Positions 1,790 to 35,000 of a stretch of 64,000 nt of DNA are shown here, one piece after another; the first letter of the stretch is position 1; each line of letters begins with the position of its first letter. The notes beneath the pieces are model-generated. The model was not told where the DNA came from and did no database searches. It worked only from the letters and a program-made list of their open reading frames with translations. Source of the DNA: Siphonodentalium dalli (Eukaryota > Mollusca > Scaphopoda > Gadilida > Siphonodentaliidae); contig CP136067.1 of assembly GCA_032622095.1 (NCBI GenBank), forward strand, positions 133,489,990 through 133,553,989, in the 5' to 3' direction. Position numbers and translations under genes: made by a program.

Positions 1790-1837
1790 TAATTAGTACT
1801 AGACCATAACATTTCGCTTTAAACTTTATAATTGCAG

Positions 1838-2036
1838 TTCTTGCTGGAGCTTTGCTTGAAAGAGCGGAGAAATTATTAGACAGAGGAATTCATCCGATCC
1901 GTATCGCCGATGGTTACGAGATGGCAGCTAAAATAGCTTGTGAACACCTGAACACAATCACGGAAACACTTCCCATTGATGCCAACAGTACAGATTTATT
2001 AGTGAAGCTAGCCATGACCACACTGGGCTCCAAAAT
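1838..2036 (+). CDS. CCT5: CCT5 exon (equatorial-to-intermediate region, from V111 equivalent)
   Basis: The acceptor is ATTGCAG at 1831-1837 and the donor is GTAAGT at 2037. The exon starts in phase 1 (a split Val codon) and ends with two bases of an Ile codon. It encodes [17 protein letters not shown], then [15 protein letters not shown], and ends TTLGSK. It aligns without gaps to the human CCT5 segment [17 protein letters not shown] through TTLGSK. In family structures this is equatorial helix plus the start of the intermediate domain. Confidence 0.96.
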
Positions 2037-8000: not shown

Positions 8001-11000
8001 AGACGGCTGCAAGCTAAATACAATTTTCACTGATAGGAACCGGAAACGGAACGAAAGGTTGAACTTAATTGGGACAGTGACATTTGGTTCTCACTATCCA
8101 CAAACATGTGTCATTTTATCCAGTGAAATATATTGTAAGCTCAATCTTATGAAGAGAAATTATTTATTTTGGTCATAAAATGTGTGAGAATCGATCAAAA
8201 GATCAGATTTACGAAACAGTTCGTTCCGGAATTGACTGATTCCGCTATAATTCCCATTTGACATTACCGTCAAGTCACGCATGCGCACAGTCCCCACACT
8301 GTACAATATAATTACGATTTCGATGCAGTATTTTACTCATTAAACACAATAAAATAACTAAATAATAAATGTCCTATCGTAGACGAGGCGGGCTATAAAA
8401 AGCCCGCCTTGGAAAATTCTAGGCGGGCTGTAGGCGGGCAGCCCGCCAGCCCGCCTTGAGATTTCCAGGCCTGAAATATACCTGCCGTAAAACTGCCGAC
8501 AAACTACTGACCATTTATCCAGACAAATTTCAACTTCTTTTCAACATTTCCCTAGAGTATTTCTGATATTAGATGTTTTATTTTTGGTTTGTTTAAATTG
8601 TATGCTTCGTGCTATACAACAGACTGTTACATGCACACTCCGCAATGTTTGGTGATGATTCGGGAGTAAACATATAAAAACCTGTCTGTTGTCATAAAAA
8701 GTTAGAATAAAAGCCTGCCAGGTAATTCTGTGCCTAAATAAATGAATTTAAAACTTGCCTGTCTGGCCATTTAAAAAAAAACTTTTTGAGAAACAGATAA
8801 TTCAGCTTTGTTTGCCAAGATTGGTGCTTAAAGATGCCCTGACCAATTTGACTTTCTAAAGTCGAAGTTTTGACATGTGTTGAAACCATCTTCTGTCGCC
8901 CTAAAGTGGTTTAGTTAAACTTCGTTAAGTCGAATCGCAAGGGACCATTGGATTACTTCGAGTTATCCGTGTGTTCGACTTAATCATTTCGACCATTTGG
9001 TGACCACAAATTCCAACTAGTTGAATTCATTTCGATCCGAAAATAATTGTTTTCAACCGTGTGCACGCTATATACCCACGCTAAATCAATAGGCAGTAAC
9101 TATGCTGATCACGTACAGCAGACAAGATGATATTTGTTCAGATTATTTATTGAATAATATAACAAAAACACAGAATATGATAAGAAAACGTCAACAAATT
9201 TGCGGTAGAAATAAAAAAAGTACATTTGACCCGAAAGTGATTACAATAGTATTTACAAAAATTGGGATTCAGGATTGGAAGTGACTGTGATCAGGGACTG
9301 TGGTTTCTGCATGTATCTAGTCGTTGATTCTTTCTATAGTTTATCGCTGATTCCCAGCATTTTCATAAGGTCGTCGGCCGTGAGATAACATGAGATAACG
9401 CATTACAATGAATGAAATTATTCTCTGTATCAGGCGGTTTAAATACTAGTATGATTTTCATTTCGTCTGTCAACACTACTAATCCTCACACGGGGGGGGG
9501 GGGGGGGGGGGGGGGGGGAATTTCACAGCTTTTTTGGCAATTGAATAGAAGCACACTGAGTTATAATCACACGGCGATGCATCGCCAACGGCGCTTCGAC
9601 TTAACCATTGTAATTAGTGTTATAAGCTGGCTGGTGGGACAAAATTTTGTTTCGACTTAAGCGGAATTTCGACTTATCCACGTTCGACTTAACCGTGATT
9701 ATTCTAATGGCTTTGTTCACACGCTCAGCCGGGACCAGGCAATGGCTTCGACTTAAGTGGGGTATTCGAGTTGCCGACTTTCAACTTAACAAAGTTTGAC
9801 TATAGTAAAATAGTGTTCGCAATTTTGTGTCCTTTCAGACCCCTTCCCTCTCCCACACCCCCCCCTGTATTTGTTAGCTCTCTCCTTTTCATCTGACATT
9901 CCTCATTTTAGAGTTAACAGATGTCACAAGCAGATGGCCAAAATAGCTGTCAATGCCATCCTGTCACCCCCCCCCCCCCCCTTGTCTTATCAGCCCCTCC
10001 CCATTCATACACTCCCTCTGCATTTGTTAGCTCCTCCCCTAATTATGTGACATTCATCATTACAGAGTTAACAGATGTCACAGGCAGATGGCGGAAATAG
10101 CTGTCAATGCCGTTCTGTCTGTAGCTGACCTCGAGAGGAAAGATGTTGACTTTGAATTAATAAAGATGGATGGAAAGGTCGGAGGGAAACTGGAAGACAC
10201 AATGTTGGTGAAAGGTGTTATAGTGGACAAAGATATGAGTCACCCACAGATGCCTAAAGTAAGCACCCCCACCCCCATATATCTCAGCTATCATGGTCAG
10301 ATTTCAATGATCATTGGTATGCTTATGGATTTTGTCCACTCATTTGTTGCAGAGTTACAGTAATGTCCTAAATAATCAACTCCTTAACCACAGCAGAATT
10401 ATGGGTAATTTTTCAGGATTTAGTCGAAAATATGGCTTGTTGCCATTAATTGGAAAGCTCCCAGTGAGAGCTTTCCGATGAATGGCAACAAGCCATATTT
10501 CTAACTAAATCCTGAAAAATTACCCATAATTCTGCTGTGGTTAAGGAGTCTATTATTTGGGGCATTGCTGTATTGGCCCTTGGAGTGAAAATCCTTTCAT
10601 GCCACCTTTAGATCTCTGTATTTTATTATCGTAGATCATGTTGAATGATTTTTAGTATGCTCACAAGGAAGCACGGAAGGAACAATATGTAAGAGGTTTT
10701 GTCCATTCATTTCTTATCCATATGGGAGACTCACATATATAAGAGAATGCATTGGCACAGGGTTTTCAAAAAATTTCAGGAAGCTCCCTGTCATGGAAGG
10801 GTTAATATTAACCTGTCAAATTCCTTGAGAACATGTTTTATTTCATCATAAAATTTCTATGAAATCTGGTAATTATATAGAGGTTATGTACCCTGGATAT
10901 TTCATACCATTCATTGAGCTCACGAGTGTGTGTCGGGCGGCATCGTTTGATGTGAAATTGCAACTTTTGGCGAGGGCGTGCACTTGTAGTTCTCGGTGGG

Positions 11001-14000
11001 TCGCAGTATAAATTATATCACATACCGGTATTCCTATCTAATCGTTATTCGGAAGAAAACATTCATGGTGTTGGAAAGTTGACCTCTAAATATGTTTGTT
11101 TGGTTATATACAGAGGTTAACATTGTAACATAATTATTTCAAGTGATCGAATTCGGTGTCCTTGTTAGTTTATTCCCGATACGGTAGCAATAAAGAGCGT
11201 TTGTCTCACTTTTGTGCGACAAATATTTATAAATAGCTATTACGTGCACAACATTTTAAAGATCGAATGTGGCGGTTCGCACATAATATTATTCCAATAC
11301 CAAAATAGATCGATAAATATCTGAACTACCTTCTGCGAGCATTATGTAAGCCAAACGGACGCATTGAAGTAATGGAAATACAAGTGTCCAAAACAGCCAT
11401 TCGCGCGTCACGTGTGTAGTTTTACTAATAGCACCATCAACAAAACACAAATATTTATTTCACCCATTGAGGCCAGTTATAAAAAGACATGACGACATCT
11501 TAATTTAAGTGCCCCGTGCTCTATATTAACAAAGTCTGCCAGCTGCAGTATGACGTAATCAGTGACACGTGCTTTTGCGCAGAATGTGTGTTTTTCCTGG
11601 ATATACGGGAGTTCCACTTTGTGTCTTTTATTGCTAAGACAATAATTCCCGTTATACGAACTAATGGTGTTTGTGATTTGCAGTTAATGAGTGTCAATAA
11701 AGTTAATAACGATATTTATTCTGGGGACTATTTAAATAGTGTCGTTATCATTCAATTTAGGGATCACGTACATCTGAACATTGATATAAACTGTAGATAC
11801 AGGATTTATCGAGCTGTCTAAAATGGCCGAAATCATTTGTTCCCTTCCCGATAACAAACACTGATTACAAATAGTGTCATTTATGGGAATTATTGGCAAT
11901 AAAACGAGCCTAGAAATGTTATTGTAATATTTTAATATTCTCATTAATTGAAAAATGACTCTCAAAGTAACTTATAATTACCTTTACTTAATCTGGAAGC
12001 CCGTTATAATGGGCATATTTCCCGATAATCGGCTTTCATCTATTTCAATATTTTAATAATACACTTCACGGTACACAATCATGGACGGGGATCGTGAAAA
12101 CGGCCGTCCTATTTTGGAAGATTGACGGTCAGCCATCGAATCCCGTCATTAACCTCGTTACAAAAATGCTACCGCGTAGCGGTAATGTCACCGCGTTTGT
12201 GCGGTGCATTACCGCGTGCCACCGCGCTATCAACATTCGTTACCGCTGGTAGTGCGGTGGTACCGTGAACGTCGCGGTGGTACCGCGGTACGCGCGTGGT
12301 TGTGCAACCGCGAATCTGCGGTATGTCGCGGTATTGCACCGCGGTATGAACGCATGTACACCTCGTTAAAACAGGTCGCTTAATTTGAGCAGTGCTGTAT
12401 GTCAAAAACTATGCAGCCATGCTCTGCATATAGGCTAATGATCATTATAACATCGGGAGACTTTGCCACTGGTCCCGATAGCTCCTTAGTAACGGTTACT
12501 AAGCACCTACTTGGAATTTCAGGAAAATGCAAGTTCTATGGTTGATATCTATTTTACTCATTAAGCTCTACTTTAGCTGAAATTCGAATTTACTTGATTT
12601 TACAGCTATACACGAAGCGTGGAGATTAACTGTGGTCAGAATATTGATGGTGAATGTTGGGGTTCAGTCGCTGTACTGAAGTTGGCCAAATATAACTGGC
12701 GTGGGAAGTGTGAAAGCAAAGCCTATACCGCTATAGTAAAGATCTCAGCTGAGCCGAAATGTCCATTTATCAGTAGCACAAATCCTGCGAAAACACAGAT
12801 TCTCTCAGTGCATGTGGGATATACTCCGATGAAAACGATTGAGTTAACGCACAACTACTATCTATACCTGTGTATGTGTGACACTACATCCCGTTATGAT
12901 GTTGTTTTAAAAACTGTCAGTGGACAACAAGACAGACAAGTATCAAATAAAACAATAATATAATATGTCATCACATCGTGAACTGTCTGTTGTGATTATT
13001 TTCTTTTGATTCAACAGGCTGCATATTATCGAAATTACAAAACCATTCGACACTTACTTTTGCCAATTACTGTATCTTGATGCATAACTATATCATATAT
13101 TGCATCTATTAAACCATGGATAGTTACAGTGGGTCAAACACTAGTGTTAGTCTACATATATAGTTGCGCACGATTGCCAATAAGTGATATTACAATCAAC
13201 GTTTGAGCATAACACAAAATTCTCCATAGGGTTAAGTGTTAAATTTTGATCGCAACTGTACCCAGCAAGAATCATCTGATCACATCCATTCTTTTTAAAA
13301 CTACGTCTGTGTTTCATACTTAGTATTTTTTAGGATATCAGTACGCGCGTATCATAATACGCAAAATGACGCCATTTACAATCTCCATAGGGCTCAGTGT
13401 TAAAATTTTATCACAACTGTAGCCAACAAGAATGAACCGATCACATCAAAATTTTCAAAAATACATTTAAAGGTCATATCTAGTAGTTTGGAGAAGTTTC
13501 AAATCGCACCGATCACCATACGCCAAATGACACCATCTATCGTTTTCTGTAAATACGAAACGCTCTCTAAATTATTTTGACCCCCGATTTAGGCCGTCCC
13601 ACCAAAATTCAAGAATGGAAACAAGTGAATCCTGAAAACACACCTACTAGGTATTCATAATCCGTTTTCAGATCACTTTTAACAAACCAAAAATGCAAAA
13701 TGACATAAGTAATCCGACTAGTATATAGATAGATATAAATAGATATATACTATAAAAAGGTACATACATATATCAAATATATCAACAACAGTAAATTGAA
13801 ATATTCATTGTACATATATATCATTCTGGTAAATCTCTATATGATGTACGGAGAGTACAATGTCATATATTTATGTAATTCTTTATTCCAGATTTGATGT
13901 ACGGGTAGTACAATGTGATAATTGGCCAATTTTTATAGTGGAATACATTAGTTTATATCAAAACAATGTTCTCCTTACATTTTCTTAACCTGGGAAGGCA

Positions 14001-17000
14001 TAATAACCCATGCTAACTATGGGCATGATCCCCATAACAAAAAATAAAAATAAAACCCTCGCTACCTCATCGATTCTCAAAAAAAATTGCCTGAGAATCA
14101 AAACCCTTTTTTTTTGGCCTTATGTATACATTTCCCACATTAACACGTACTGTGTCTTGATGATTTTGCTTACCTGATTTCCAGTTTCTAGCAAACTCCC
14201 TGTCTACGCTGAGCTGATCTGTGTTAGCTTTCAGTCCTCATTGTTGCACTAACATCTTGGCATGCAGATCTAGACACCTGTCATGTTTTTCGATGTGACT
14301 GGTCGCAGAATCTGCTAAAAAAATACCCATTTTCAACCTTTGTGATAGTCTGTTGTCAGGATTATCACCCTGATAAGAATGGGACAGAGTGAAAGCGAAA
14401 ACGTCGGAGCATGCGTTCGGTTGGAGTGTAACCACTTATTAGCTCAACTTACTTTGTAAGTTTGAGCTGTTGGTGTTCGTCGTCCGCGTGTGCGTGTGTC
14501 CGTCAACAATTTCCTTTGGTGCGGGCTACAGGTCGTATTTTAGTGGGATCTTTATGAAATTTGTCATGAATGTTGACATTTACATGTAGATGGGAACGAG
14601 TCATTTTAGGATCATTCGGCCAAGAAACATGGCCGCTGGTGGCCATCTTGGATTTTACTCTTTGCATCACTAAATCCTTTGACACATCCTACAGACCACA
14701 TCTCTGATCCGATCATCACCAAACCTCATATGGATCATCGGGGTGACCTCTAGATGGGAATGAGTCATTTTGGGGTCATTCGGCAAAAAAATATGGCCAC
14801 CAATGGCCATTTTGGATTTTACTCTTTGTATGACTAAATATTTCTACAAAATCCATTAGCATGGGTTATAGAACGATCTGTTTGTTTGATCTTTATGAAA
14901 TTTGTCATGGATGTTGACATTGACATGTAGATGGGAACGAGTCATTTTGGAGTCATTCGGCAAAAAAACATGGCCGCCGGTGGCCATTTTAGAATTTACT
15001 CTTTGCATCACTAAATCCTTTGGCACACCCTACATACCACATCCCTGATCCGATCATTATGAAACTTGTCATGAATGTTGATATTGACATGTAGATGGGA
15101 ACAAGTCATTTTGGGGGTCATTCAGCCAAAAAAACATGGCATGTGGCGGCCATCTTGGATTTCAAAATTGAATCCGTTGACTCGGGGCTACAGGCCGTAC
15201 TGTTTGTCTGATCTTCATAAAATTTTCATTGATGTTGACATTGAGATGAAGATGGGAACGAGTCATTTTAGGATAATTCGGCCAAAAAACATGGCCGCCA
15301 GCGGCCACATTTCAATTAGCACCTTTCCTAATTCCTCCATTTACTGTCAATCATTAAATTATTCCCCGACCTAAATTGAACTACAGTGTCATTGACACTT
15401 TCATCTTTAATCCATGTTAACCCTTTCATGACTGGAACTTTCTGCGAAATCCCTGTGCCAGTGCATTCTCTTATATATGCGAGTCGACCATAGTCGCCTC
15501 GCATATATAAGGGTATGCATTGACCTAACAAATTTCAATTATTTTTTATAATTGTTAAAGAATGTAAGAACAAATTATCAATAATGTAAGAAAAATTATC
15601 AAAAATTATCAAATTGTTTTTATTTAAATGTAAGAAAAAGTGATAGAAAATGATAAAATTGTAAAAAAAAGTCAGAAAAAATGAAAAAATATTGTTCCAG
15701 AATGTAAAAGAAAATTATAAAAAATGTTAAAAATTGTTAGGCCAATGTATTCTCTTATATATGTGAGGCGACCTATGGTTCTGTCATCAGAGGGTTAAGG
15801 CTAATGTAAAAAAAATGCTATATTATCACCCCTCCCGACCCTATTTTTGGATGCCCTCATTTTTTTATTTGGATAAATTTGATGTAAGCCTTTTTCTCAT
15901 GCCTTGGTTTAAAAAAAATTTTATTTCCAAATCAGAATGTCGGAGAGTTATAAACATACAACAGAACATACAATGATACGATAGAATTGGATGAAAGTAT
16001 ACGGAATTAAATTGGACAACAAGCATAATTTAGCATATGACGTTTGTATTTTCTGTTTGAGTTACCTTTATCTCAATTTATCTGGAAATATTGGTGTTTT
16101 CATCTGCCTGGTTAGATCTCAGCCATGCCTGTCATTTGCAGAATGAGGGCCCCAGTGTGTGAATGTAGTTATGCTTTCCCGCATAGCGGGCTATCATCAC
16201 TAAATTTACCCTCTGGGGACGTCATTCTGCTTAGGCCTCTTATATATAGAATTCATAATCGAGGTGATATTTTGTTTCTCTGTAGATCTAGACACCCGAC
16301 TCATGTTTCCCGATGTGACGGGTCGCAGTATCTACTAAACTAAACCCATTCTCAACCTTTGTTGTTAGTCTGTTAGGACTAGTGACCCTGATATGATTGG
16401 GACAAACACAGCTGCAAGAAAAAATCTGGGCCTATTCATATCTAAAATTTCCAAAGTTATGCTTGAGAAAATTGACCTCAGTAAAATTCAAAATACTGAC
16501 TCAATGAGCCCTAGATTAGCTCTCAATGCAATGAATTAAAAAAAAATTCCAGGGGGAGAACCCCCCCACCATCAGCAAGGGGACACACCCTCCCGAACTT
16601 CCCCCGCTCAGGCCTTTGGGATATGCTTTTGGCCTATCATTGCCCGTTAATAGGTGTCCCCAAAAAATCCCTGAATCCTTCACTGCCTAAGTCTTAGCTA
16701 TATAGGTTTCTATTCATGAATATTTTGTTTCCCTGTAGATCTAGACACCCGACTCATGTTTCCCGATGTGACGGGTCGCAGTATCTACTAAACTAAACCC
16801 ATTCTCAACCTTTGTTGTTAGTCTGTCTGGACTAGTGACCCTGATATGATTGGGACAAACACAGCTGCAAGAAACAATCTGGGCCTAAGTCTAAATATAT
16901 TACTATTTATTGAATACTATTGAATATTTTGTTTCCCTGTAGATCAAGACACCCGACTCATGTATCCCGATGTGACGGGTCGCAGTATCTACTAAACTAA

Positions 17001-20000
17001 ACCCATTCTCAACCTGTGTTGTTAGTCTGTCAGGACTAGTGACCCTGATATGATTGGGACAAACACAGCTGCAAGAAAAAATCTGGGCCTATGTCTAAAT
17101 ATATTACTATTCATTGAATACTATTGAATATTTTGTTTCCCTGTAGATCAAGACACCCGACTCATGTATCCCGATGTGACGGGTCGCAGTATCTACTAAA
17201 CTAAACCCATTCTCAACCTTTGTTGTTAGTCTGTCAGGACTAGTGACCCTGATATGATTGGGACAAACACAGCTGCATGAAAAAATCTGGGCCTATGTCT
17301 AAATATATTACTATTCATTGAATACTATTGAATATTTTGTTTCCCTGTAGATCAAGACACCCGACTTATGTTTCCCGATGTGACGGGTCGCAGTATCTAC
17401 TAAACTAAACCCATTCTCAACCTTTGTTGTTAGTCTGTCAGGACTAGTGACCCTGATATGATTGGGACAAACACAGCTGCAAGAAAAAATCTGGGCCTAT
17501 GTCTAAATATATTACTATTCATTGAATACTATTGAATATTTTGTTTCCCTGTAGATCAAGACACCCGACTCATGTTTCCCGATGTGACGGGTCGCAGTAT
17601 CTACTAAACTAAACCCATTCTCAACCTTTGTTGTTAGTCTGTCAGGACTAGTGACCCTGATATGATTGGGACAAACACAGCTGCAAGAAAAAATCTGGGC
17701 CTATGTCTTAGCTATATAGATTTCTATATTTCAATATTTTGTTTCCCTGTAGATCAAGACACCCGACTCATGTTTCCCGATGTGACGGGTCGCAGTATCT
17801 ACTAAACTAAACCCATTCTCAACCTTTGTTGTTAGTCTGTTAGGACTAGTGACCCTGATATGATTGGGACAAACAAAGCTGCAAGAAACAATCTGGGCCT
17901 AAGTCTAAATATTACTATTCATGAATATTTTGTTTCCCTGTAGATCTAGACACCCGACTCATGTTTCACCATGTGACAGTATGAATGTTGAAGATATGAT
18001 ATTGTCTCTAATCGTTATTCATGAATTCATATTTTCAAATATATATGACTTCCGTTGTTGGTTACATGATTTTCCATTCTTTTTGATGACTGCTGAAGAG
18101 TAATAATTCTTTGTACTGGTATTTTCATGTGCAGATCTAGACACCTGTCATGTTTTTCAATGTGACGGATCGCAGAATTTGCTAAATGTATTCCATTCTA
18201 AACCTTTGTGATTATCTGTTGTCTGGACTAATCACACTGATAAGGATGGGACAAACACAGTAAATATAAAACTGAAATGACTAATCTCATTCTTTGATTT
18301 CAAGCATGATGCAGCCACTATTCCTTTGAGATTATGAATGTTTAACTTCCCACATACTATGTAATGTTGTTAATTTGAAACATAAGTTCTGACCATGGCC
18401 ATTTTGGACAAGTTGCCTGGGAAGCAGACACCAGATAATACAAGTGCACAACGATTCCTATTTGGGGGAATTGTTTTAGATAATAAATTCACCAAAACGG
18501 GCCATGTTGAATTTATTAGCTGATCATTTCCTAAGGAAACTACTCTTCAATGAAAGTTAGTTAAGATAGTGTTAAAATGACTTGCCTAATCTGATTCTTT
18601 AACCCTTTGAGTGCCAGGGGCCGATATTATCGGCCCTAAACCTACACAATAAGTCTTAAAGAATATAATAAAATATATTAAAATTGTAAAAAATTGTAAA
18701 AAAAAAAATGTTAGGCCAATGCATTCTCTTATATATGCGAGGCGACCTATGGTCGACTCGCATATATAAGAGAATGCATTGGCACAGGGTATATGGGTTG
18801 ATACAAAAATCGGACCTGGCACTCGAAGGGTTAATTTCATGCATGATCAAGCCACTATTATTTTTTGATATATGAATGCGTATTTTCTCCCTTGCTGACT
18901 AATGTTATCAATTGACATTCTGACTATGGGTCTTCGAAATGCTTTAAAATGTGTTTTATTATTCATTTCTGTTCACGTTTGTTTCCCTGCAGATCTAGAC
19001 ACCTGTCATGTTTTTTTATGTGTCAGGTCGCAGAATTTGCTAAACTAAACCCATCTTCAACCTTTGTGGTCGTCTATTAACCCTTTACCCAACAGAACGC
19101 CCAGAAACGCCCTAACAGCCTAAATTATCTTCGGTCTGTCTCAATAAAACCATGGAAATATGGGTATCATTGGAACCGGCTCATTGAGCACATTGTGATA
19201 GTTACAGTTATGCCCTGTGCCAATGCATTCTCTTATATATGCGAGTCGACCATAGGTCGCCTCGCATATATAAGAGAATGCATTAGCCTAAACAAAACTT
19301 TTTTTTAACACTTTTTACCATTTTTTCTTTAATATGTGTTAAGCCAATGCATTCTCTTATATATGCGAGGCGACCTATGGTCGACTCGCATATATAAGAG
19401 AATGCATTGGCACAGGGCCCTTCTGTTGGGTAAAGGGTTAATAGGGCGATCACCCTGATCCGGATGGGACAAGAAAGAAATTCATACACAAGTCAAGTGT
19501 ATACATGTACATCTCTTAAGATGCATTTGTCAACATTTTTGTAAACAAAAATCTCCAGGGCTAATTCTAGATGCTGGATGTTGTCTTATTTGTGGCATCA
19601 AAATAATATTAGTATACCACCCATGGTCAAGTGGTCCTGAATAGAGTTACAACCCATGGTCAAAAATGATCCGGCTATTGTGCTAATTGCTATGATTCTG
19701 TTAGGGAAAACTGATGCTCTTAACCCTTTGAGTGCCAGGTCCGATTTTTGTATCGACCCATATACCCTGTGCCAATGCATTCTCTTATATATGCGAGTCG
19801 ACCATAGGTCGCCTCGCATATATAAGAGAATGCATTGGCCTAACAATTTTTCATCATTTGTTATTATTTTTTACAATTTTTTACAATTTTAATAATTTTT
19901 TAAAAATCTAAAAAAAAAAAGAGAAAATGTTTTTTATTTTTTTAGGGCCGATTTTACAGACCGTATATTAGGGCCGATGAGATCGGCCCCTGGCACTGAA

Positions 20001-23000
20001 AGGGTTAAGATTTAGTAATATTATTATTTCTGAAGTGTTCGGATAATCTGAACATATCTATGAAAATCCATTAATATGTGTATCAAACATTCCAAGAACT
20101 TAAACCTATCATAGGTCTCCCATAAATTATAAGGCCTAAGCAGAATGAGGTCCACAGAGGCTGAATTTGGTGATGCTAGCCTGCTGTACAGGATATCATC
20201 CCTTAATTCACCCTCTGTGGACCTCATTCTGCAAATGTAAGACTTCCTTACACTGATTCAAGAAGAATCATTTTGGTTGGAAACTTTACAATTAGTGCAA
20301 TAATTTTGATTGTTAATTTTTCACAGTCTGTAAAAGATGCAAAGATCGCCATTTTGACGTGTCCATTTGAGCCTCCAAAGCCAAAGACAAAGAACAAGTT
20401 AGAGATTAGCTGTGTCGAAGATTACCTGAAACTCAAAGATTACGAGACAGAAAAGTTCAATGAGATGATTAAACAGGTTAGTCACAGTGGTTATATATCT
20501 GCTGTTATGCCTTGGATATATATATGGATCAGACATGTTTACTTTCCCAACCTTTGGCGGGATTCTCACAAAAGCCAGCCTTATCTTCGCACACCCATGA
20601 TCGGGAAACAGATTCTCCCGCATTCAATAAAAAACGAAAGACAAATATTTTAGTCCATGGGCTGGTAGGATCCTCAGGCTGTTAGGACCCATCATACACA
20701 CTCCCCCTCCCACTACTAGACTTCTTTAGTATTTTCATGTACACTAATGTGTATTGTTCAGAAAAAAAATTGTTATGTAAGTGATGTCACTTTGATTGGA
20801 TTTTTGACAGGTGACATGTCATTTTGTAGGTATTTGATTACTCTATCGACTGGTAGCAAACAAATTACGGCATCACCAGAGGAGCAATTCCTAGAATCTC
20901 GAATCCTGGCAGTCTTTATTAGAGATTTTGCAGTCTATTGATAATTTTTTGACACTGTTATTTGTATGTGTGGCTGTCCATTATCCTTTCATGCTAAAAA
21001 AAAAAAAATTATTTGTTGAAATCATGGGAATCAAGCCTTAAAATAAGTGGCCGGACACTTGACAAATGTCCCGACGCCGGATTCGCATTTTTCAAATTTT
21101 CCCCAGAAGTCGGACAAACGCTCTTTATTGCTACCATATCAGGAATAGACTACCACGAAACGCTTCTTTTCTGCTNNNNNNNNNNNNNNNNNNNNNNNNN
21201 NNNNNNNNNNNNNNNNNNNNNNNNNNNNNNNNNNNNNNNNNNNNNNNNNNNNNNNNNNNNNNNNNNNNNNNNNNNATATGGTGGTAGCATAAAGGCTTCT
21301 ATTAGTTATATTATAACTTATATACACGTATGTTGATGCAACTGCGACAAACTTTCACATGACTTATATGGATACGCTCACCCCTACATGGTGTTAGTAA
21401 CAGAACAGGGCTCAGAGCAAATGAGGATTTATATAACCTTAGAATTGAGTGTGAAATTGGCAAGCATGTTGTGGTCAGGGTGGGAAAATTTGCAATATTT
21501 AATGTTGTAAAAAATGTGACATTTGAGGAGAGGAACATAACTGGGGGATAATACACCACTATTTGTTTCATTTGGCATTATTTCGGGTGATAAAAAGACA
21601 TGTCAGGCGTACTTATAAAATGTCAGACCATGTCCATTTGGTGCCTGACAAAATGTCACACACACGAATAAAAATTATTTTAAGGCTTGATGGGAATGCA
21701 CCTGGTAGAAATGATATAAAATTTGTAACATATTTTAAACTACACTGAATTGAATCGATTCGCATGGCCCTAAACGTATGCTCTATGACATATATGTGAG
21801 GAAATCATATGTTTTTGTTATACATGTAGGTAAAGGACAGTGGAGCTAACCTCGTAATCTGCCAATGGGGATTCGATGATGAGGCTAACCATCTGTTATT
21901 ACAGAATGAACTTCCAGCTGTCCGATGGGTCGGTGGACCAGAAATTGAGGTATAGTTTATAATCTAGTCTAGAAAATGGATGTTAGAGCGCACATACTCC
22001 TGCAAACCTGGAACTGGTTGCGGGGTTTCACATAACCAAGCCTGAGAATTGTCTGCCGGCCATTTGCAGAATGAGTTCCCCAGAGGGTGAATTAGTGATG
22101 CTACCCCACACAGTGGGCAAACATCACCAAATTCATCCTGTGGGGACTTCATTCTGTATGGCCTCATTTGCTATGGGAGGCCAAGACTCAGATTTAAGTT
22201 ACCAGATGGTGAATATTGTGATGTGCACCCATTGGGCACCTCAATTATGCATTTGTGTCATCTGTCTATTTGGGGATATATAGAATCTTAAACTAAAAAA
22301 GAAAAAGTTTCTAAAGCAACCAAAAACTTGTTAACTTGATAATAAAGACACTTGAAAATAAAGAGAAGATTAGGACTAAGCAGAATGAGGTCCCCTGAGG
22401 GTGAATTTAGTGATGCTAGCCCCTCTGGTGACCTCATTCTGCAAATGTTCAACACCATATTCTCAGGCATGCACATAAACAAGCCCTGTCAACCAATTTT
22501 TACTAGAGTTATAGCCATCTGAAAATCAATGACACAATTATTGTTTTTCTACCATTTTATTCTCAAGTTAACAGGGGGGGGGGGGGGGGGGGGGGCGGAA
22601 AAAAACTGCGGGAAAACAATGTACCGGGGGGTGGGGGGGGGGGGGTACCTAGGCATAAAAAATTTGCATGTAATTTTTTTTCCAAATATGTGTTTCAGAC
22701 TCACAACTTAAATTTTCTCTCATTTTATAGAATATGGATTAACCTTAATATCCAATCATATATACATGAGTAGTACAATCCACCTAAAACAATTTTGGAT
22801 AACCACTGTCTTGGTTTACATGTGATATTGACCCCATTAACCCTCTTAATAATGCCGACTATGTCAGTGTCTACCAGTCGAATGCAGAATTCAACCCTGC
22901 GATCGCTTATCTGGCAAATTTTTACTGCAGAACTATCCCATGTATTCTGATGTATTAAACAATTTCTCCTCCAATGGTATCAGAAAACAGTTATATGCTG

Positions 23001-26000
23001 GTATCTCACTCATCTCATTTGCATCTTTTTCAAAGTCGAGGTAATGACTAGTTGTCATTTTTTAAAGTGCATACAAAGCGTTCGTTGCGATCACCAATAT
23101 ACATGTTTGTACATGTCATGACATCACGAGGTACAAATCTGCGTTTCTACTCTGTTCTACTGGTAGACAATGACCATTTTAGTCATAATAATCTAAACTA
23201 AGTTACCAAGCACCTTCTCGTGAATTGTATGCTCCGGTGTTTTTTTCGGTTTCCGGTCAAACGAGTTGTTGTCTGGCTGGGGTAGATTTGATTTTTCCGG
23301 TGGGGCCGTTGTTTTTTTCGGTTTCCGGTCAAACCGAGTTGTCCGGCTGGGGTAGATTTGATTTTTCTGGTGGGGGGGGGGGGGGGGGGGGGGGGGGGCA
23401 AATGGTCAGTGGAAAAAAACTGCAGTTTTTGCTGTTTTTTGGGGGGGGGGTGGGGGCGGGTACCCAAACGGAAGAAAACAGTTTTTTCCACCCTGTGTCT
23501 GCAGTTTTTTTCCGCCCCCCCCCCCCCCCCCCCCCCCACCCCCCCCCCCCTGAAGTTAACGCTGTCTTTACTGAATGCTCATTGATGAGTAGTTCCCTTA
23601 GGAAATCTTCAGATAATAAGTTCAACAAACGGCCATAGGTTTGTTGAACTTATTATCTAAACATTTACCACCACGGAATTGGAATCCTTCTGCACCTGTA
23701 TTATCTTTCGTTTGTCTGTCGTTTACTCATTTTCCTGAACACCCCCTCCAAATGAATAAAAGACCATTCCAATATATACTTCTATAACTGATGGGAAAAT
23801 CCATTTAGTAAAGAAAGAGTTGAGCTATTGATTACATATCTGTTTTGACCAAGTGTCTTATTGCCTAGGCTTGAGAGCACAGAGAATTTCTGGTGGCTCT
23901 ATGAGCTAACTGGACCAGACACTGTGCAATATCAATGTTAGATGGCTTCCTGATTCCTGACCCAGTCATGAACTGTGGTCGGAGTTGAAGCTGCTTCAAC
24001 ATATTTTTCAATACTCTTTTGTCTTGAAGAATTTTCACAAGAAAAAACGATATAGTGTGTCCAAACGAAGGGTTGATTATTTCCCGTCTTTCTATTTGTC
24101 TTGGGATTTGTGTGTCCTTTGTTTCATGCATCTTGCCATCTGTGGACACAACTTTATCCAAACTTTTAGACCTCTATTATGTGGTCCATGTTCATATATT
24201 GGTATCAGTGCATCTATGAGTGAAAACTTCAGATATATTTTGTTTGATTTATTACCCCTTAATGAATTTGAAATGTTTTGAATATTTTTGATGTCAATTT
24301 TTTTAAAGCTTTGCACATATAATTATATTTGTCAGCATAACAACCTGTCACCTGCGATTGTGACATTGGTTTGAGTCATTTTGACAAAGTTATTGACCTT
24401 TGCCTTTTTTTCGACTCAGAATTGATTGAACATTTACTTTCTGATTTATTGTCTTTTTAGATTTTGTGCCCAATACTTTAACAATGCCTATCCTGTTTGT
24501 ATTCCCAAGTGCACATTGGTGGGGTATCATTTGGCTAGTTTAATATATGGATTTTCATAAATTTTCATTGTTATAATTCGTGTTTTCTTGTATTAGTGTT
24601 AAATTCTGTGTAGATTACCAGTAAGTTCTTTTGATTCGAGTTGCTCAGAGAATTTCTGTCATTGTTTATACGATGAACAGACCAGACACTGTGCGATATT
24701 AAACTCAGTCTGGTCTCTGTGAGTCTCACTGCTTCAGAGCTCTGAGCACGATGACTGGCTGTGACATCTGTAGTGTTGTACTATAGGATGCATCCTGATC
24801 ATAAGGCTACAAGGTGTCCAGTTCTGTGTTCATCATCAGTTTCATACTGATTCGTTCTTGAAAATCAGGAGATAACCTGTTTATTGATCGCTGAGGCCTA
24901 AAAAAAAAATAATGATGTTTCCGGTAACGGTATTCATGTATAATATTTGCCTGTCAGCACACATTCTATAACAGGACACAATGAGCACATTATTGGAAGC
25001 GATAATGAAGCACTGGCTAGTATATTTAATAAAAAAAGATTGCGACATCAACTGACCCTTGTACAAAAGGGTGCCGCCATCTTAACAGTATGTATGTACA
25101 GTAGCAAAAAAAGAGGTTACCATATATTCATTCCTTGTGGTTTTGCTCAGAGAATTTCTGTCATCCTTGTATTATGGGCTGACATTTGTGAAGATTTTTG
25201 TACGTGTTACACATAATTTTGGTCATCTCTTGTATTTTGGGCTGACTTGTGTAAAGGTTAATATATTTTCTAATGAATTGAGTTGCACAGAGAATTTCTG
25301 TCATCGTTTATAGGATGAACAGACCAGACACTGTGCAATATTAAACTCAGTCTGGTCTTATGAGTCTCACTGCTCAGAGCTTTTGAGCATGAACACTGAC
25401 TGTGACATTAGCATTTTTGTACGTGTTACATGGAATTTCGATCATCTCTTGTATTTTCAGCTGACATATGTAAAGGTTAATATATTTTCTAATGATTCGA
25501 GTTGCTCAGAGAATTTCTGTCATTGTTTATACGACGAACAGACCAGACACTGTGCGATATTAAACTCAGTCTGGTCTCTCTGAGTCTCACTGCTCCAGAG
25601 CTCTGAGCACGATGACTGGCTGTGACATCAGCAGCTTTGTAGTGTAGCTCACATATAACACCGGCCTGAAATTTATGTTGTCATATGGTTGGTAGGTGGA
25701 ACGACATTTATGTTGTTTTCAATAGTTTTTTGATGGTGCTGTATTTGCACATACATAGTTGCAAAATCAGCCGACTAAATGAAGAGTATCTATAGTTTTG
25801 TGTAGACTTGGGGGTTTGTGTTAAAATGTTTCACCTTAACCCTACCATAACTGGAGTTTTCTGAATTTTTTTGAAAAACATGTACCAATGCATTCTCTTA
25901 TATATGTGAGGCTCCATATGGGCAACTCGTACATATAAGTGAATGCACTGGCACATGATCTGCTGCATCAGCACAGCTCCTGTCATGAAGGGTTAATACC

Positions 26001-29000
26001 GCTTTCAATCACACTTTCGAAAAAGACAACTCAATAATCAATTGGAAAGTATAAGTGTGGCATGTAAAATTGTCATTTGAAGATTTAGTGTCACTATCGT
26101 CATGGGAAATTCACGAGTAGTTTTACTTTCTAATCACGGTGTGTTCTGGCAGCTGAAATGTGGTTGCATCTGTTTTTCTTTGGAGACTTGTACTATTTCA
26201 GAAAAAGGAATTTTCCTTTATTTCTTCAAGAGAAAGTTACTATGGAAAGCTTCACTTCATTCACTTCTGTTTAATATTGCTTCGCATCATTCCGTTTCTC
26301 TGGTTTCGAATAGAAATTGGACCAACCGAACCTGGAAGTTTTCGTATCTATGAGGAAATAACAAAGTATCCTACAAAAATAGCATTGACTCGGTATCACA
26401 GATTGACATCAATGAGGTATTTAACCGATAGGTTTCATAACATTTGAAAGTTGGTATTCACAAGCTTCCAGCAGTTCTCAACACCTGTGATATCAGATGA
26501 TATCTACAGGTCGCAATACTGCAATATTAATATACCACAGTCTGCCTTATTCTGGTGGCTATTGGTTACCAAAGCATGACTGTAATTATATTATATATTA
26601 ATACAGATATTTATTACACTCCTATGCCCGATTTACATTGAAAATGCTGTTAATTAAAAATGGTAATGTCACCAGTGAATTATGTCATTTCCCGTGACGT
26701 CATTAACGTTACATCGCTTACTGATATAGACTGAATTTTCAATGGTTGATCTTTCTCCACATCGGGACTTTCATGCATTAATTCTTTGTGTTTTAATCGT
26801 ATTTGGCGAACCAAACTGATGCAGAAGTGTAATAAATAGAGAAATCAATTAGTTCCGAGAATTACATTCAATAATTCACTAGAGGCGAGAGATGTTTGGG
26901 TAAGAAACTCATGCGCTAACACGCACTCGTTTCTTACCGATGTCTCTCGCCTTTCGTGAATTATTTAACGTAATTCTCTGAACCAATTGATTACTCTCTA
27001 TATATTGTTCCACATAATATTTCTTAGATTCCTTTGGATGATGAGAAATACATGCTTGATTATCAAGCTGTTATCAACACTTGTTATATTTACTATCAGC
27101 AGGTCGCAATACTGTAACATTAATAACGCAGTCTATCTTATTCTGGTCACCATTGGTTACCAAAACATGACTCTAACATATATTCTCAAGTTTCACAAAC
27201 TCTTAATATATTGTTCCACATAACAGTTCTTCAATTCCACGTGATAAGGGGAAATCCAAGCTTTAATATCAATGAAATGAATATTTGTTTGTAAATTGCG
27301 GTATTCAAATATCAAAATCACATTTGAATATTCGTCTGCCCTAAAAAGAGTACTTAAGTCATGCAAATACATCAAGCCTAACGATCAGAGCACGTCACGT
27401 CTAACGATCAAAGCACGTCGCTCGAGCAGCAATGATAGCATCCTGAATGTGATGCGATCCTCTCGTCACAATCCATGTTCCTCTCATGTGCATACACAGC
27501 GCGCCATGTATGTGTCGGCCTGCTTTACTGATTATGTTACATCGCTAATGCGTCTGACAACACGCACAAAAATAAGATTATGAAAAGTTAATAGTTTCTA
27601 TACAAGAATTGTTATCTTTATATAGAGTAAGAATTTGTATTATTTCTCCAAGCAGTTATCAACACCTGCAATATCTGATGATATCTACAGGTCGCAATAC
27701 TGCAACATTAATACACCACAGTCTACCTAATTCTGGTGGCTATTGGTTACCAAAACATGGCTGGGTAACATATTCTAGTGGTTCATAGATTATATTGTTC
27801 CAAATAACAATTCTTAGATTCCACTGAATGAGAGGAAATCCATGCTTTAATATCCAGCAGTTATCAAATCTCGCCATACTTAATAATCTGCAGGTTGCAA
27901 CACTGCATCATTAATAGCGCAGTCTATCTTATGCTGGTCACCATTGGTTACCAAAACATGACTCTGTAACATATATGCTCAGGGTTCACAGACTATATAT
28001 TGTTCCAAATAAATAACAATTATTCAATTCCACGTCATGATGGGAACTCCAAGAATGAATATCTAGTATTTCTCAACACCTGTTATATATGATGATTTGT
28101 GTAACATTAATAACACAGTCTAACTTATTCTGGTCACCATTGGTTCCAAAACATGACTGGGTATTACACAAATTCAGTTTCTGTTTGATCTCGAAATGAG
28201 TTGAAATTTTCATGAGTACAAGCTAGAATTCCTAGATTATTCTCATTTGATGCCATAAATTTAAGACTACCATCTCTTATTGCAAATCATGATTATAGAA
28301 TTATTGCTATCTTTTCTTTCGTATTGTTATAGCAACACCAGAATTCCTGTCTTTTCAGGCTGGTTGTTTTAGGGACTCATAGAAGTTTTGTTATTTCTTT
28401 TTATTCCCTTTATCCCTTTCATGACTGGAGCTTCTTAAAATTTTGCAAAAACCCTGTGGCAATGCATTCTCTTATATATTTGAGTCTATATGGGAGCCTC
28501 ACATATATAAGAGAATACATTGGCCTAACAATATTTACCTTGACCTTGTAAGCCAGTGGATTCTCTTAGATATGCGAAGCTCCCTATGACAGACTCGCAT
28601 ATATATGGGAATACATTGCCACCAGGGTCTTTAATGCTGCACCAGCACAGCTTTTGTCATGAAAGGGTTAATAGTAATTGGGTTCTCCTGTTATCTAGCT
28701 CATTGCTATATTTATTCAATGTATAATTTCCCTCGTTTCCAGCTCATTGCCATAGCAACAGGAGGAAGAATTGTCCCCAGGTTCGAGGAGCTGAAGGCTG
28801 AGAAGCTAGGTAAAGCTGGAATCGTACGAGAACTGGCCTTCGGCACAACTAAGGATAGAATGTTAGTTATTGAAGACTGTCACAACTCACGAGCCGTCAC
28901 CATATTCGTCAGGGGAGGTAACAAAATGGTGAGTAAAATATACGAGCCTTCAGTATATTCTTCAGGGGAGGTAATAAAATCTAAGAGTATACTATAATAT

Positions 29001-32000
29001 GGTGAGCCGTCATATTCGTCTGGGGGACATAATAAAACGGTGAGTAGAATATTTTTAGGTTTCGTACAGGTTCTTGAAATTGATTAAATTTTGGACTGTT
29101 GCATTTTCTGACCTGGAGACCTTTGAAAACAGGGATTTTTGGTTAAAGGTACTCATTCCGATCAGACAGTCCCCATACCATCAAGATACAACAACAACAT
29201 TTCTTCAAAATACACTTTAGTTATCAGAATCGACTTGTTGCAACAAAATAATGCTAATCACTGTCAACTATGGTATAAAAATTCCAAAACTTGTTATTTA
29301 TCAACATTTTGTTCAAAGTATACCAAAATTTGACCGTATTACCACTTGAGTTTAGAGTTATTCATCTTCATCCACAATTTTGTCCGAGACCCTCCATCTG
29401 ACCACATGTTTCTGGGCCACATATTATTACACATCTCGAGAAATAACAAACTTCAAAAATCGATATCTGATCACTCTTGAGCTTTGAAGGGTGGGTTCCT
29501 CATCTTGAATAAAATATTTGTTTACCCCCGAAGCCAAAGAAATAGTAATTTAGGAGCATCTGATCGGATTGAGTACCTTTAAAGTCTTTAAAAAGTGCTT
29601 GACAGGGTTATATTATATTTGTTCAGAAATTGACGTAGACTCTTGCATTCCAATGGTAGAGAATGACTTGTCATTTACATTGTTACGCATAAAGGGCCAT
29701 TGGTCCATCACATGATTTTAACATTTGAGACATCTGTTTGTGGTGTAATTTTATGTTATAATGATCCCATTTAGTCTTCTAGTTCACCCTGACTTGATGG
29801 TCGTAGTGGGCAATCAGTTCACTGCATACAGTTGGTGTGCTTTTCTGTTGATGAAGTGATGTGGAATACTCCATGATGTGTTCATATAAGGATTAACTGT
29901 CATGTGGACTGTTTTTTATGGAGATGTAACCTTGAGGTAAGTGGTCATAACTTGGGTTTTACATACAAGTTATGACCACTTACCTCGCGGTTACATCTCC
30001 ATAAAAACAGTCCACATGGCAGTTAATCCTTATTAGCTCAACTTTACTTTGTAAAGTTTGAGCTATTGCCATGGCTTGGTATCCGTCGTCCGTGTGTGCA
30101 TGTGTGATGCGTCAACAATTTCCTTTAGCACGGGCTACAGTTCGTACCTTTGGTCCAATTATTATGAAATTTGTCATGGATGTTGACATTGACATGTAGA
30201 TGGGAACGAGTCATTTTGGGGTCATTCGAAAAAAAAAAAATGGCCGCCAGCGGCCATCTTGGATTTCAAATTCAATCCATTAGCACGGGCTACAGGCCGT
30301 ACTGTTCATCTTATTGTCATGAAATTTGTCATGGATGTTGTTAATATTGACATGTAGATGGGAACGAGTAATTTTGGGGTCATTCGGCCGAAAAACATGG
30401 CCGCCAACAGCCATCTTGGATTTTACTCTTTGTATGACTAAATGCTTTAGCACGGACTACAGGTCGTACCTTGAGTCTGATCATCATGAAATGTTTCATG
30501 GCTGTTGAAATTGGAATGTAGATGGGAACGAGTCATTTTGGGGTCATTCGGACATTCGAAAAAACATGGACGCCAGTGGCCATCATTGATTTCAAAATTC
30601 AATCCATTAGCACAGGCTACAGGTCTTACTGTTCATCTGATCATCATGAAATTTGTCATGGATGTTAATATTAACATGTAGATGGGAACGATTTATTTTG
30701 GGGTCATTCGGCCAAAAAACATGGCCACCAGCAGCCATCTTGGATTTTACTCTTTGTATGACTAAATCATTTAGCACGGGCTACAGGTCGTAATTTTAGT
30801 CTGATCATCATATAATTTGTCATGGATGTTAACAATGACATGTAGATGGGAACGAGTCATTTTGGGGTCATTCGGCCAAAAAACATGGCCGCCAGCAGCC
30901 ATCTTGGATTTTACTCTTTGTATGACTATATCCTTTAGCACGGGCTACAGGTCGTACCTTTAGTCTGATCATCATGAAATTTTTCATGGCTGTTGAAATT
31001 GGAATGTAGATGGGAAAGTCATTTTGGGGTCATTCGGACAAAAAACATGGCCGTCAGCAGCCATCTTAGATTTTACTCTTTGTATGACTAAATTTTTAAG
31101 CTACAGGTCGTACCTTTAGTTTGATAATCATAAAATTTGTCATGGATGTTAATAATGACACGTAGATGGGAACGAGTCATTCGGCCAAAAAACATGGCCG
31201 CCAGCTGCCATCTTGGATTTTACTCTGTGTATGACTAAATCCTTTACTGCTCATTTTTAGCTCAACTTTACTTTGTAAAGTTTGAGCTATTGCCATGGCT
31301 TGGTATCCGTCATGCGTGTGTGTGTGTGCGTGATTCGTCAACAATTTCCTTTAGCACGGGCTACAGTTCGTACCTTTGGTCCAATTATTATTAAATTTGT
31401 CATGGATGTTGACATTGACAAGTAGATGGGAACGAGTCATTTTGGGGTCATTCGGGAAAAAAACATGGCCGCCAGCGGCCATTTTGGATTTCAAAATTCA
31501 ATCCATTAGCACGGGCTACAGGCCGTACTGTTCGTCATATTGTCATGAAATTTGTCATGGATGTTAATATTGACATGTAGATGGAACGAGTAATTTTGGG
31601 GTCATTCGGCCAAAAAACATGGCCGCCTGCAGCCATCTTAGATTTTACTCTTTGCATGACTAAATCCTTTGACACGGGCTACAGGTCGTACCTTTGGTCG
31701 GATCATCATAAAATTTGTCATGGATGTTAACAATGACATTTAGATGGGAACGAGTCATTTTTGGGTCATTCGGACAAAAAATATGGATGCCAGCAGCCAT
31801 CTTGGATTTACTCTTTGTATGACTAAATCCTTTAGCACGGGCTACAGGTCGTACCTTTAGTCTGATCATCATAAAATTTGTCATGGCTGTTGAAATTGGA
31901 ATGTAGATGGGAACGAGTCATTTTGAGGTCATTAGGACAAAAAACATGGCCGCCAGCGGCCATCTTTAATTTCAAAATTTAATCCATTAGCGCGGGCCAC

Positions 32001-35000
32001 AGGTCGTACTGTTCGCCTGATCATCATGAAATTTGTCATGGATGTTAATTTTGACATGTAGATGGGAACGAGTAATTTTGGGGTCATTCGGCCAAAAAAC
32101 ATGGCCGCCAGCAGCCATCTTGGATTTTACTCTTTGTATGACTAAATCTTTAGCACGGGCTACAGTTCGTACCTTTAGTCTGATCATCATAAAATTTGTC
32201 ATGGATGTTAACAATGACATGTAGATGGGAACGAGTCATTTTGGGGTCATTAGGACAAAAAACATGGCTGCCAGTGGCCATCTTGGATTTCAATATTCAA
32301 TCCATTATCACGGGGTACAGGTCGTACCTTTGGTCTGATCATCATGAAATTTGTCATGAATGTTAACATTGACATGTAGATGGGAACGACTAATTTTGGG
32401 GTCATTCGGCCAAAAAACATGGCTGCCGGCAGCCATCTTAGATTTACTCTTTGCATGACTAAATTCTTTGGTGCGGCCTACAGGTCGTACCCTTGGTCGG
32501 ATCATCATACATTTTTTAGCTCAACTTTACTTTGTAAAGTTTGAGCTATTGCCATGGCTTTGTCGTCCGTCGTCCGTGTGTACGTGTGTACGTGTGTGCG
32601 TGTGCGCGTGTGTGCGTGTGTACGTAAGGCGTCAACAATAGAGGCTACAGGTCGTACCTTTGATCGGATCATTATGAAATTTGTCATAGCTGTTGACATC
32701 AACATTTGTACCGGAATGATTCATTTTGGGGTCATTCGAAAAAAAAACATGGCCGCCAGCGGCCATCTTAGATTTCAAAATTCAATCCATTAGCACGGGC
32801 TACAGGCCGTACTGTTCGTCTGATCGTCATGAAATTTGTCATGGATGTTAATATTGACATGTAGATGGGAACGAGTAATTTTGGGGTCATTCGGCCAAAA
32901 AACATGGCCGCCAGCAGCCATCTTCGATTTTACTCTTTGCATGACTAAATTCTTTAGCACGGGCTACAGGTCGTACCTTTAGTCTGATCATCATGAAATT
33001 TGTCAAGGATGTTAACAATGACATGTAGATTGGAACGAGTCATTTTGGAGTCAATCGGCCAAAAAACATGGCCGCCAGCAGCCGTCTTGGATTTTACTCT
33101 TTGCATGACTAAATCCTTTAGCACGGGCTACAGGTCCTACTTTTAGTCTGATCATCATAAAATTTGTCAAGAATGTTAATAATCACATGTAGATGGGAAC
33201 GAGTCATTTTGGGGTCATTCGGCCAAAAAACATGGCCGTCAGCAGCCATCTTGGATTTTACTCTTTGTATGACTAAATCCTTTAGCACGGGCTACAGGTC
33301 GTACCTTTAGTCTGATCATTATAAAATTTGTCATGGCTGTTGATATTGGAATGTAGATGGGAACGAGTCATTTTGGGGTCATTCGGACAAAAAACATGGC
33401 CGCCAGCGGCCATCTTGGATTTCAAAATTTAATCCATTAGCACGGGCTACAGGTCGTACTGATTGTCTGATCATCATGAAATTTGTCATGGATGATAATA
33501 TTTACATGTAGATGGGAACGAGTAATTTTGGGGTCATTCGGCCAAAAAACATGGCCGCCAGCAGCCATCTTCGATTTTACTCTTTGCATGACTAAATCCT
33601 TTAGCACGGGCTACAGGTCGTACCTTTAGTCAGATCGTCATAAAATTTGTCATGGATGTTAACAATGACATGTAGATGGGAACGAGTCATTTTTGGGTTA
33701 TTCGGGCAAAAAACATGGCCGCCAGCAGCCATCTTGGATTTTACTCTTTGTATGACTAAATCCTTTAGCACGGGCTACAGGTCGTACCTTTAGTCTGATA
33801 ATCATGAAATTTATCATGGCTGTTGAAATTGGAATTTAGATGGGAACGAGTCATTTTGGGGTCATTCGGACAAAAAACATGGCCGCCAGTGGCCATCTTT
33901 GTTTTCAAAATTCAATCCATTAGCACGGGCCACAGGTCGCACTGTTCGTCTGATCATCATGAAATTTGTCATGGATGTTAATATTGACATGTAGATGGGA
34001 ACGAGTAATTTTGGGGTCATTCGGCCCAAAAACATGGCCGCCAGCAGCCATCTTGGATTTTACTCTTTGTATGACTAAATTCTTTAGCACGGGCTACAGG
34101 TCGTACCTTTAGTCTGATCATCATGAAATTTGTCATGGATGTTAACAATGACATGTAGATTGGAACGAGTCATTTTGGAGTCAATCGGCCAAAAAACATG
34201 GCCGCCAGCAGCCGTCTTGGATTTTACTCTTTGCATGACTAAATCCTTTAGCACGGGCTACAGGTCCTACTTTTAGTCTGATCATCATAAAATTTGTCAA
34301 GAATGTTAATAATCACATGTAGATGGGAACGAGTCATTTTGGGGTCATTCGGCCAAAAAACATGGCCGTCAGCAGCCATCTTGGATTTTACTCTTTGTAT
34401 GACTAAATCCTTTAGCACGGGCTACAGGTCGTACCTTTAGTCTGATCATTATAAAATTTGTCATGGCTGTTGATATTGGAATGTAGATGGGAACGAGTCA
34501 TTTTGGGGTCATTCGGACAAAAAACATGGCCGCCAGCGGCCATCTTGGATTTCAAAATTTAATCCATTAGCACGGGCTACAGGTCGTACTGATTGTCTGA
34601 TCATCATGAAATTTGTCATGGATGATAATATTTACATGTAGATGGGAACGAGTAATTTTGGGGTCATTCGGCCAAAAAACATGGCCACCAGCAGCCATCT
34701 TAGATTTTACTCTTTGTATGACTAAATTCTTTATCACGGGCTGCAGGTCGTACCTTTAGTCTGATCATCATAAAATTTGTCATGGATGTTAACAATGACA
34801 TCTAGATGGGAACGAGTAATTTTGGGGTCAATCGGCCAAAAAACATGGTCGCCAGCAGCCATCTTGGATTTTACTCTTTGTATGACTAAATCCTTTAGCA
34901 CGGGCTACAGGTTGTATCTTTAGTCTGATCATCATAAAAATTTTCATGAATGTTAATAATGACATGTAGATGGGAACGAGTCATTTTGGGGTCATTCGGC

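Follow-up and report, generated by a model that had tools for sequence, protein, structure and literature searches.

For clusters of small nucleolar RNA (snoRNA) genes within introns of Drosophila and rice, PMC2780460 cites Huang et al. 2005 and Liang et al. 2002. Animals are described in PMC11028025 as having mostly one snoRNA per intron, and intronic clusters in rice and Drosophila are treated as known in PMC2780460. For chicken, PMC2653536 reports that about 90% of H/ACA snoRNAs are singletons and that almost all snoRNA paralogues come from intragenic duplication. Human SNORA15 is given in PMC6466398 as targeting 18S-1367 and residing in CCT6A. Here we analyzed 64,000 nucleotides of the scaphopod Siphonodentalium dalli (contig CP136067.1, positions 133,489,990 to 133,553,989; hereafter the window), in which two introns of CCT5 carry three families of box H/ACA-like units, named A, B and C.

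The CCT5 locus resembles the Drosophila and rice clusters (PMC2780460) in having several snoRNA-type units in one host intron. It may go beyond them in that one family fills an intron with nine to ten copies and two families share the other. Large tandem C/D repeats of the SNORD115/116 type, as described in PMC11028025, are likewise one snoRNA family multiplied locally in tandem. However, they are C/D genes of imprinted loci, where they lie in the repeated introns of noncoding genes, whereas the CCT5 units are of H/ACA type and lie within single introns of a protein-coding gene. SLERT-type introns with two snoRNAs, which give H/ACA-ended long noncoding RNAs (sno-lncRNAs), likewise have more than one H/ACA unit per intron according to PMC11028025. 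In contrast, CCT5 has many units, and a snoRNA-ended long RNA is a possibility for it. Compared with SNORA15 (ACA15, RF00398), family B has the same 5′ pocket with complementarity to 18S U1367, the two-hairpin H/ACA form and a CCT subunit as host, whereas its 3′ hairpin is diverged, its score is under the Rfam cut-off, its host is CCT5 instead of CCT6A and it has four copies in one intron.

Three features stand out, namely how strongly H/ACA units have been amplified locally, the mixed ages of the copies and the SNORA15-like guide in CCT5; intronic clusters themselves are known. A preliminary description of this DNA had called the multiplication unusual for an animal, which needs to be softened: it agrees with the usual single snoRNA per intron (PMC11028025) but not with the Drosophila clusters reported in PMC2780460. 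If expressed, the locus would be a clear case of local H/ACA guide amplification in a non-insect animal with several ages visible together, namely a fresh array of 204-bp period, diverged but compensated copies, decayed copies and one copy split by a transposon-like insert. Since a SNORA15-like guide lies in CCT5 here and SNORA15 in CCT6A in human, it becomes possible to test whether the host has switched between CCT paralogues over deep animal time. The curated cut-offs of Rfam miss the entire CCT5 set.

CCT5 is very probably an intronic snoRNA host gene, in which two introns hold three locally copied H/ACA families that were kept or lost copy by copy. The plus strand of the window carries the 3′ part of CCT5 and is the sense strand of the gene. 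Exons were mapped by tblastn with a human CCT5 query and their edges were then read directly. The protein joined from these exons is CCT5 by its PDB match. Among the best 120 of 7742 relatives, its top matches have 82-83% identity, and the nearest named relatives are mostly molluscs (Liolophura 80%, Pinctada 81%, Mytilus 80%). A partial duplicate of the start of the exon at 10067-10258 is located at 9913-9966, about 150 nt upstream of that exon. A literature search, weak because of its narrow coverage, gave no paper describing CCT5 as a host of snoRNAs; the one paper in which CCT5, snoRNAs and host introns occurred together (PMC11186191) concerns retroviral Gag.

The two introns contain 18 near full-length units (A1-A9, B0-B3 and C1-C5) of 106-128 nt, the shortest being C5, by deletion. 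In addition, there are the interrupted A10, the truncated A11 and a partial B copy at 25142-25260. Every copy is in sense orientation. The earlier count of about 20 sense-strand units in three families is thereby confirmed, and the end point given for them, 28172, agrees with the ACA of C5 (28166-28168). All three families are laid out as hairpin-ANANNA-hairpin-ACA, which is the form of a box H/ACA snoRNA. When A10 is counted with the 18, an exact ANANNA H box is present in the hinge of 17 of 19 units (exceptions A9 and C4), and 18 of 19 (exception C1) have ACA just below the 3′ hairpin, at the 3′ end as we set it. RNAalifold on the nine complete A copies gave two pocketed hairpins, a hinge with the H box between them and ACA after, in agreement with the pair counts. 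Hairpins of B and C that fold better than shuffled sequences are the 5′ hairpins of B0-B2, C1 and C3 and the 3′ hairpins of B0 and C1. C2 and C5 do not show two pocketed hairpins, and the fold is weak in C4 and, for the 3′ hairpin, in B1-B3 and C3.

In H/ACA RNAs, according to the rule stated in PMC8522698, the target uridine and the box are 15 ± 1 nt apart. We used a proxy, the distance to the box from an upper stem that we set ourselves. It is 14 nt for the first hairpin of B and 15 nt for the second hairpins of A, B1/B2 and C3/C4. The same proxy is 13 nt for the first hairpin of A and the second of C2, 12 nt for the first of C3 and 17 nt for the second of C5.

Table 1. CCT5 introns and H/ACA-like units in the window
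Feature	Position	Strand	Evidence
CCT5 intron with family A	10259..20326	+	tblastn exon map, boundaries read
CCT5 intron with families B and C	21950..28742	+	tblastn exon map, boundaries read
A1, intact H/ACA unit	14264..14389	+	R1, boxes
A2, intact	16282..16407	+	R1, boxes
A3, intact, opens 204-bp tandem array	16735..16860	+	R1, boxes
A4, tandem copy	16939..17064	+	R1, boxes
A5, tandem copy	17143..17268	+	R1, boxes
A6, tandem copy	17347..17472	+	R1, boxes
A7, tandem copy	17551..17676	+	R1, boxes
A8, at array edge	17749..17874	+	R1, boxes
A11, truncated: about first 40 nt, remaining model match weak	17940..18045	+	R1 E 0.12; Tandem Repeats Finder (TRF) array ends 17977
A9, divergent, without exact H box	18131..18256	+	R1, boxes
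A10, divergent, interrupted by insert 19081-19443	18989..19474	+	R1, boxes
B0, divergent SNORA15-like	23877..24004	+	Rfam RF00398 28.1 bits, E 0.015; R3
B1, SNORA15-like, without Rfam match of its own	24643..24769	+	R3, boxes
Partial B copy	25142..25260	+	R3 E 8e-4
B2, SNORA15-like	25285..25410	+	Rfam RF00398 32.0 bits, E 0.0018; R3
B3, SNORA15-like, without Rfam match of its own	25504..25630	+	R3, boxes
C1, both hairpins fold well, no ACA, 3′ end set by authors	26471..26590	+	R2; R1 cross-match E 0.023
C2, boxes kept, 5′ hairpin degenerate	27067..27181	+	R2, folding
C3, best C copy: strong 5′ hairpin, both boxes; 3′ hairpin no better than shuffles	27652..27773	+	R2; R1 E 0.07
C4, H box lost, 5′ hairpin weak	27857..27974	+	R2, folding
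C5, deletion in 5′ hairpin	28066..28171	+	R2, boxes

Structural covariation in family A is beyond that of shuffled and slid controls. In the model-fitted alignment, which is biased towards its own structure and holds copies of few independent types, 98.1% of cells pair and five pairs are changed on both sides; none of 500 shuffles reached either value. Sliding by 1-3 columns gave 0-1 doubly changed pairs and 30-44% pairing. Further pair types were less striking (reached by 30 of 500 shuffles). A MAFFT alignment analyzed with RNAalifold gave two doubly changed pairs. Besides its nine complete copies, family A includes an interrupted and a truncated one. Because A3-A7 form an almost identical tandem array with a 204-bp period, only about four independent sequence types are represented. 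Four types, including A10 with its 3′ hairpin read across the insertion, were aligned by hand over 27 pair columns with the upper 5′ hairpin omitted. Of 12 directed comparisons, 11 retained more pairs than expected if substitutions were random (≤470 of 20,000). In the 5′ hairpin of B (11 pairs), all six comparisons with B0 were below 5%, as were eight of ten comparisons in C. When folding energies were compared with shuffles, 15 of 26 hairpins fell in the lowest 5%.

A stable H/ACA RNA is probably produced from family A. The statement of the preliminary description that the paired stem changes have no simple repeat explanation was only partly right, as A3-A7 are a plain tandem array. In A10, both arms are kept and a 363-bp TTAA-flanked insert with inverted ends occupies the apical loop of the 3′ hairpin. 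Without the insert this hairpin folds a 10-bp upper stem, which makes it probable that A10 was functional until the element inserted. The inverted ends of the insert could fold out as a giant loop.

To look for targets, we used human sequences as references (18S, 1869 nt; parts of 28S; 5.8S, U1, U2, U4, U5 and U6). The 5′ pocket of family B, which has four copies and one partial, is invariant across the four copies. It pairs as UGUCUGG-UU-AAUUC, 7+5 = 12 bp, exactly at U1367 of the human 18S ribosomal RNA (rRNA), and shuffled B guides reached its score at U1367 in 0 of 100,000 cases. With relaxed thresholds, the Rfam SNORA15 model matched B2 and B0 on the sense strand (Table 1), ranking above an antisense SNORA41 match and two matches to unrelated families. 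In a scan of 14100-28300 at E 5, a palindrome matched Plasmodium snoR11 (E 0.7). Neither 1-14200 nor 28200-64000 gave any H/ACA family at E 0.5. For a SNORA15 copy of Xenopus tropicalis, PMC8522698 reports that the predicted 18S site (yeast 1136 equivalent) is unmodified in any species, which means that pairing alone is no proof of modification. We take that site to be other than U1367.

For the 3′ pocket of A, 18S U109 and a 28S “UAUCNGG-UA-AAG” site were considered and are not claimed. No target is claimed for the A and C pockets on two non-animal 28S contigs. A search for eukaryotic rRNA in viral contigs found none. Two contigs filed in bacterial metagenome-assembled genomes, L001 and L002 (Gammaproteobacteria DT_94; Thermodesulfobacteriota DHS20C13), are eukaryotic 28S rRNA. 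The end repeats of L002 are of GGGGTTT type and resemble ciliate telomeres.

Family C has five copies, mostly damaged: C2, C4 and C5 are degenerate and C1 has no ACA. C3 would be the best candidate among them. In family C, the lower stem of the second hairpin is CAGUC/GACUG and its upper stem UGGU..ACCA. CCT5 as host of three multiplied families, as put forward earlier, is well supported for A and B and less so for C. Covariance models were built for each family (R1 for A, R2 for C, R3 for B), which match their own copies by construction. The alignment behind R2 ended 10-15 nt before the ACA, and R2 therefore has no ACA end. None of the models found a convincing extra copy on either strand of the 64 kb. 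Besides A1-A10, R1 gave seven matches: full-length plus-strand cross-matches to C1, C3 (Table 1) and B2 (E 0.14), the truncated A11, two in palindrome-rich sequence (E 0.029 and 0.17) and one at 53937 (E 1.5). R2 gave seven matches besides C1-C5, among them A1 (E 0.16) and A10 (E 0.26). A and C have a common 5′ hairpin core, ACACCUG...CAGGUCGCA. A generic H/ACA descriptor scan gave six plus-strand and five minus-strand matches, compared with 0-3 per strand in shuffled sequence, did not separate the strands and recovered only one of the 18 units (B2). By eye, the five other plus-strand matches have no H/ACA fold, and one is a palindrome resembling a miniature inverted-repeat transposable element (MITE).

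Several results weigh against CCT5 as a host of H/ACA families. In the hand alignment of A, the exception was A1 to A9 (8525 of 20,000), and doubly compensated pairs alone were significant in six of 12 comparisons. Pair retention in C failed from C1 to C2 and from C1 to C4 (two of ten). A hand count over all helices (81 pairs) found 31 variable pairs, four doubly compensated, 15 kept via one side and 16 with at least one broken cell. Eleven of the 26 hairpins folded like shuffles, namely the 5′ hairpins of A4 and B3, the 3′ hairpins of B1-B3, C3 and C5, and both hairpins of C2 and C4. Rfam at gathering cut-offs gave 0 matches in the window. The SNORA15 scores are below the cut-off of 47, with B1 and B3 unlisted, and for this reason B is called SNORA15-like and is not filed as a member. 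The antisense SNORA41 match on B2 (E 0.34) marks the noise level of the relaxed scan. Shuffled B guides reached the observed score at any of 1160 uridines in three of 200 cases, which is indecisive without SNORA15 as a prior since 15 pocket variants were tried; the weight of the B guide therefore rests on a site already known from SNORA15. The other 14 variants (12 of A and C, two of B) did not rise above chance on the human set. As to “guide” families, the term used before, target complementarity thus bears it out for B (18S U1367) and not for A or C. R3 matched no A or C unit, and R2 also matched antisense C sequence (E 0.18, 0.75 and 4.7). Units were not better kept than their flanks in B2/B3, C2/C4, C3/C4 and C1/C3. 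Gene conversion, if confined to the unit, could also give the appearance of selection.

Some of these points would suit a set of mostly dead snoRNA pseudogenes, with one or two functional ancestors and the remainder drifting as repeats without output. C1, C2, C4, C5, A10, A11 and the partial B copy are indeed damaged, B2/B3 and C2/C4 lack extra conservation of the unit, and across the A3-A7 array the spacers match one another about as well as the units do, as expected of a fresh duplication. We nevertheless consider this unlikely. In seven of 11 chosen pairs, which overlap and are not independent, the unit is significantly less diverged than the aligned flanks; for example, A2/A3 differ at 2/126 unit positions and 18/82 flank positions, and B1/B3 at 4/127 and 24/75. 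The unit is kept while flanks diverge in A2 compared with A3, A7 and A8 and in A3/A8, A1/A9, B1/B3 and B1/B2, and the guide is invariant in all four B copies.

If CCT5 is a host gene of locally copied families, these would have been multiplied in DNA by tandem and short-range duplication and then retained or decayed copy by copy. CCT5 transcription and splicing, or cutting of the intron, would free the introns or RNAs. Each unit would presumably assemble into a ribonucleoprotein with dyskerin, NHP2, NOP10 and GAR1, its ends trimmed or cut to three nt past the ACA, and the 5′ hairpin of B may guide 18S Psi1367. A and C, if functional, would guide pseudouridylation too. Because there are several units per intron, end-trimming alone would leave linked units, and either endonucleolytic separation or snoRNA-ended long RNAs would be expected. 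Introns with two snoRNAs yield such long RNAs according to PMC11028025. A further-reaching version is that the CCT5 introns form a dosage-amplified poly-snoRNA transcript, cut by an endonuclease or left as H/ACA-capped long RNAs, with A and C as lineage-specific guides for sites or RNAs unmodified in vertebrates. We regard this version as rather improbable.

The way in which the copies arose bears on another explanation, a mobile repeat of SINE (short interspersed nuclear element) or MITE type, snoRNA-derived or unrelated but structured, that landed several times in the CCT5 introns. Palindromic MITE-like repeats abound in the introns, H/ACA-derived retroposons exist, and several old copy pairs have little in common beyond the RNA: BLAST homology ends near the RNA ends in A1-A2 (-1/-3), A3-A9 (-1/+4) and C1-C3 (-6/+5). 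Other A pairs reach further (A1-A8 -44, A1-A9 -20, A9-A10 -30), and young copy pairs carry their flanks along, which is expected of DNA duplication. As all copies are also in sense orientation, R1-R3 found no convincing copy elsewhere on either strand of the 64 kb and neither a poly-A tail nor a target-site duplication is evident by eye, repeated landing is very unlikely. RNA-mediated copying was weighed as well since several old pairs have only the RNA in common, and DNA duplication was preferred because young copies share flanks. Finally, the starts of A2-A8 and A10 resemble a 3′ splice site (TTTGTTTCCCTGTAG/ATC), which would suit multiplied cassette exons or some other repeat with a role in coding or splicing. 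This reading can hardly be upheld and was rejected, because by eye the frames are interrupted and differ among copies and no conserved donor is seen, and terminal G-C/A-U changes compensate with the far side of the hairpin.

Other repeats are present in the window. Large arrays of a 164-bp tandem repeat (TCCTTTAGCACGGGCTACAGG...) lie at 30121-36814 and 47454-49787, in and beyond CCT5, and degenerate sequence like it lies between A1 and A2 (14480-15320). Near-perfect palindromes (CCAATGCATTCTCTTATATATGCGAG...) are repeated at 15447-19843, 25874 and 40223, where relaxed Rfam gave sub-threshold matches to many microRNA (miRNA) models. These palindromes are probably MITEs and not miRNA genes. Similar sub-threshold miRNA-model matches at 42299, 53856 and 55295 may stem from palindromes too. 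A second palindromic family of about 100 bp (GCAGAATGAGGTCC...) occurs at 16138, 20140, 22065, 38071, 56303, 60233 and 61114.

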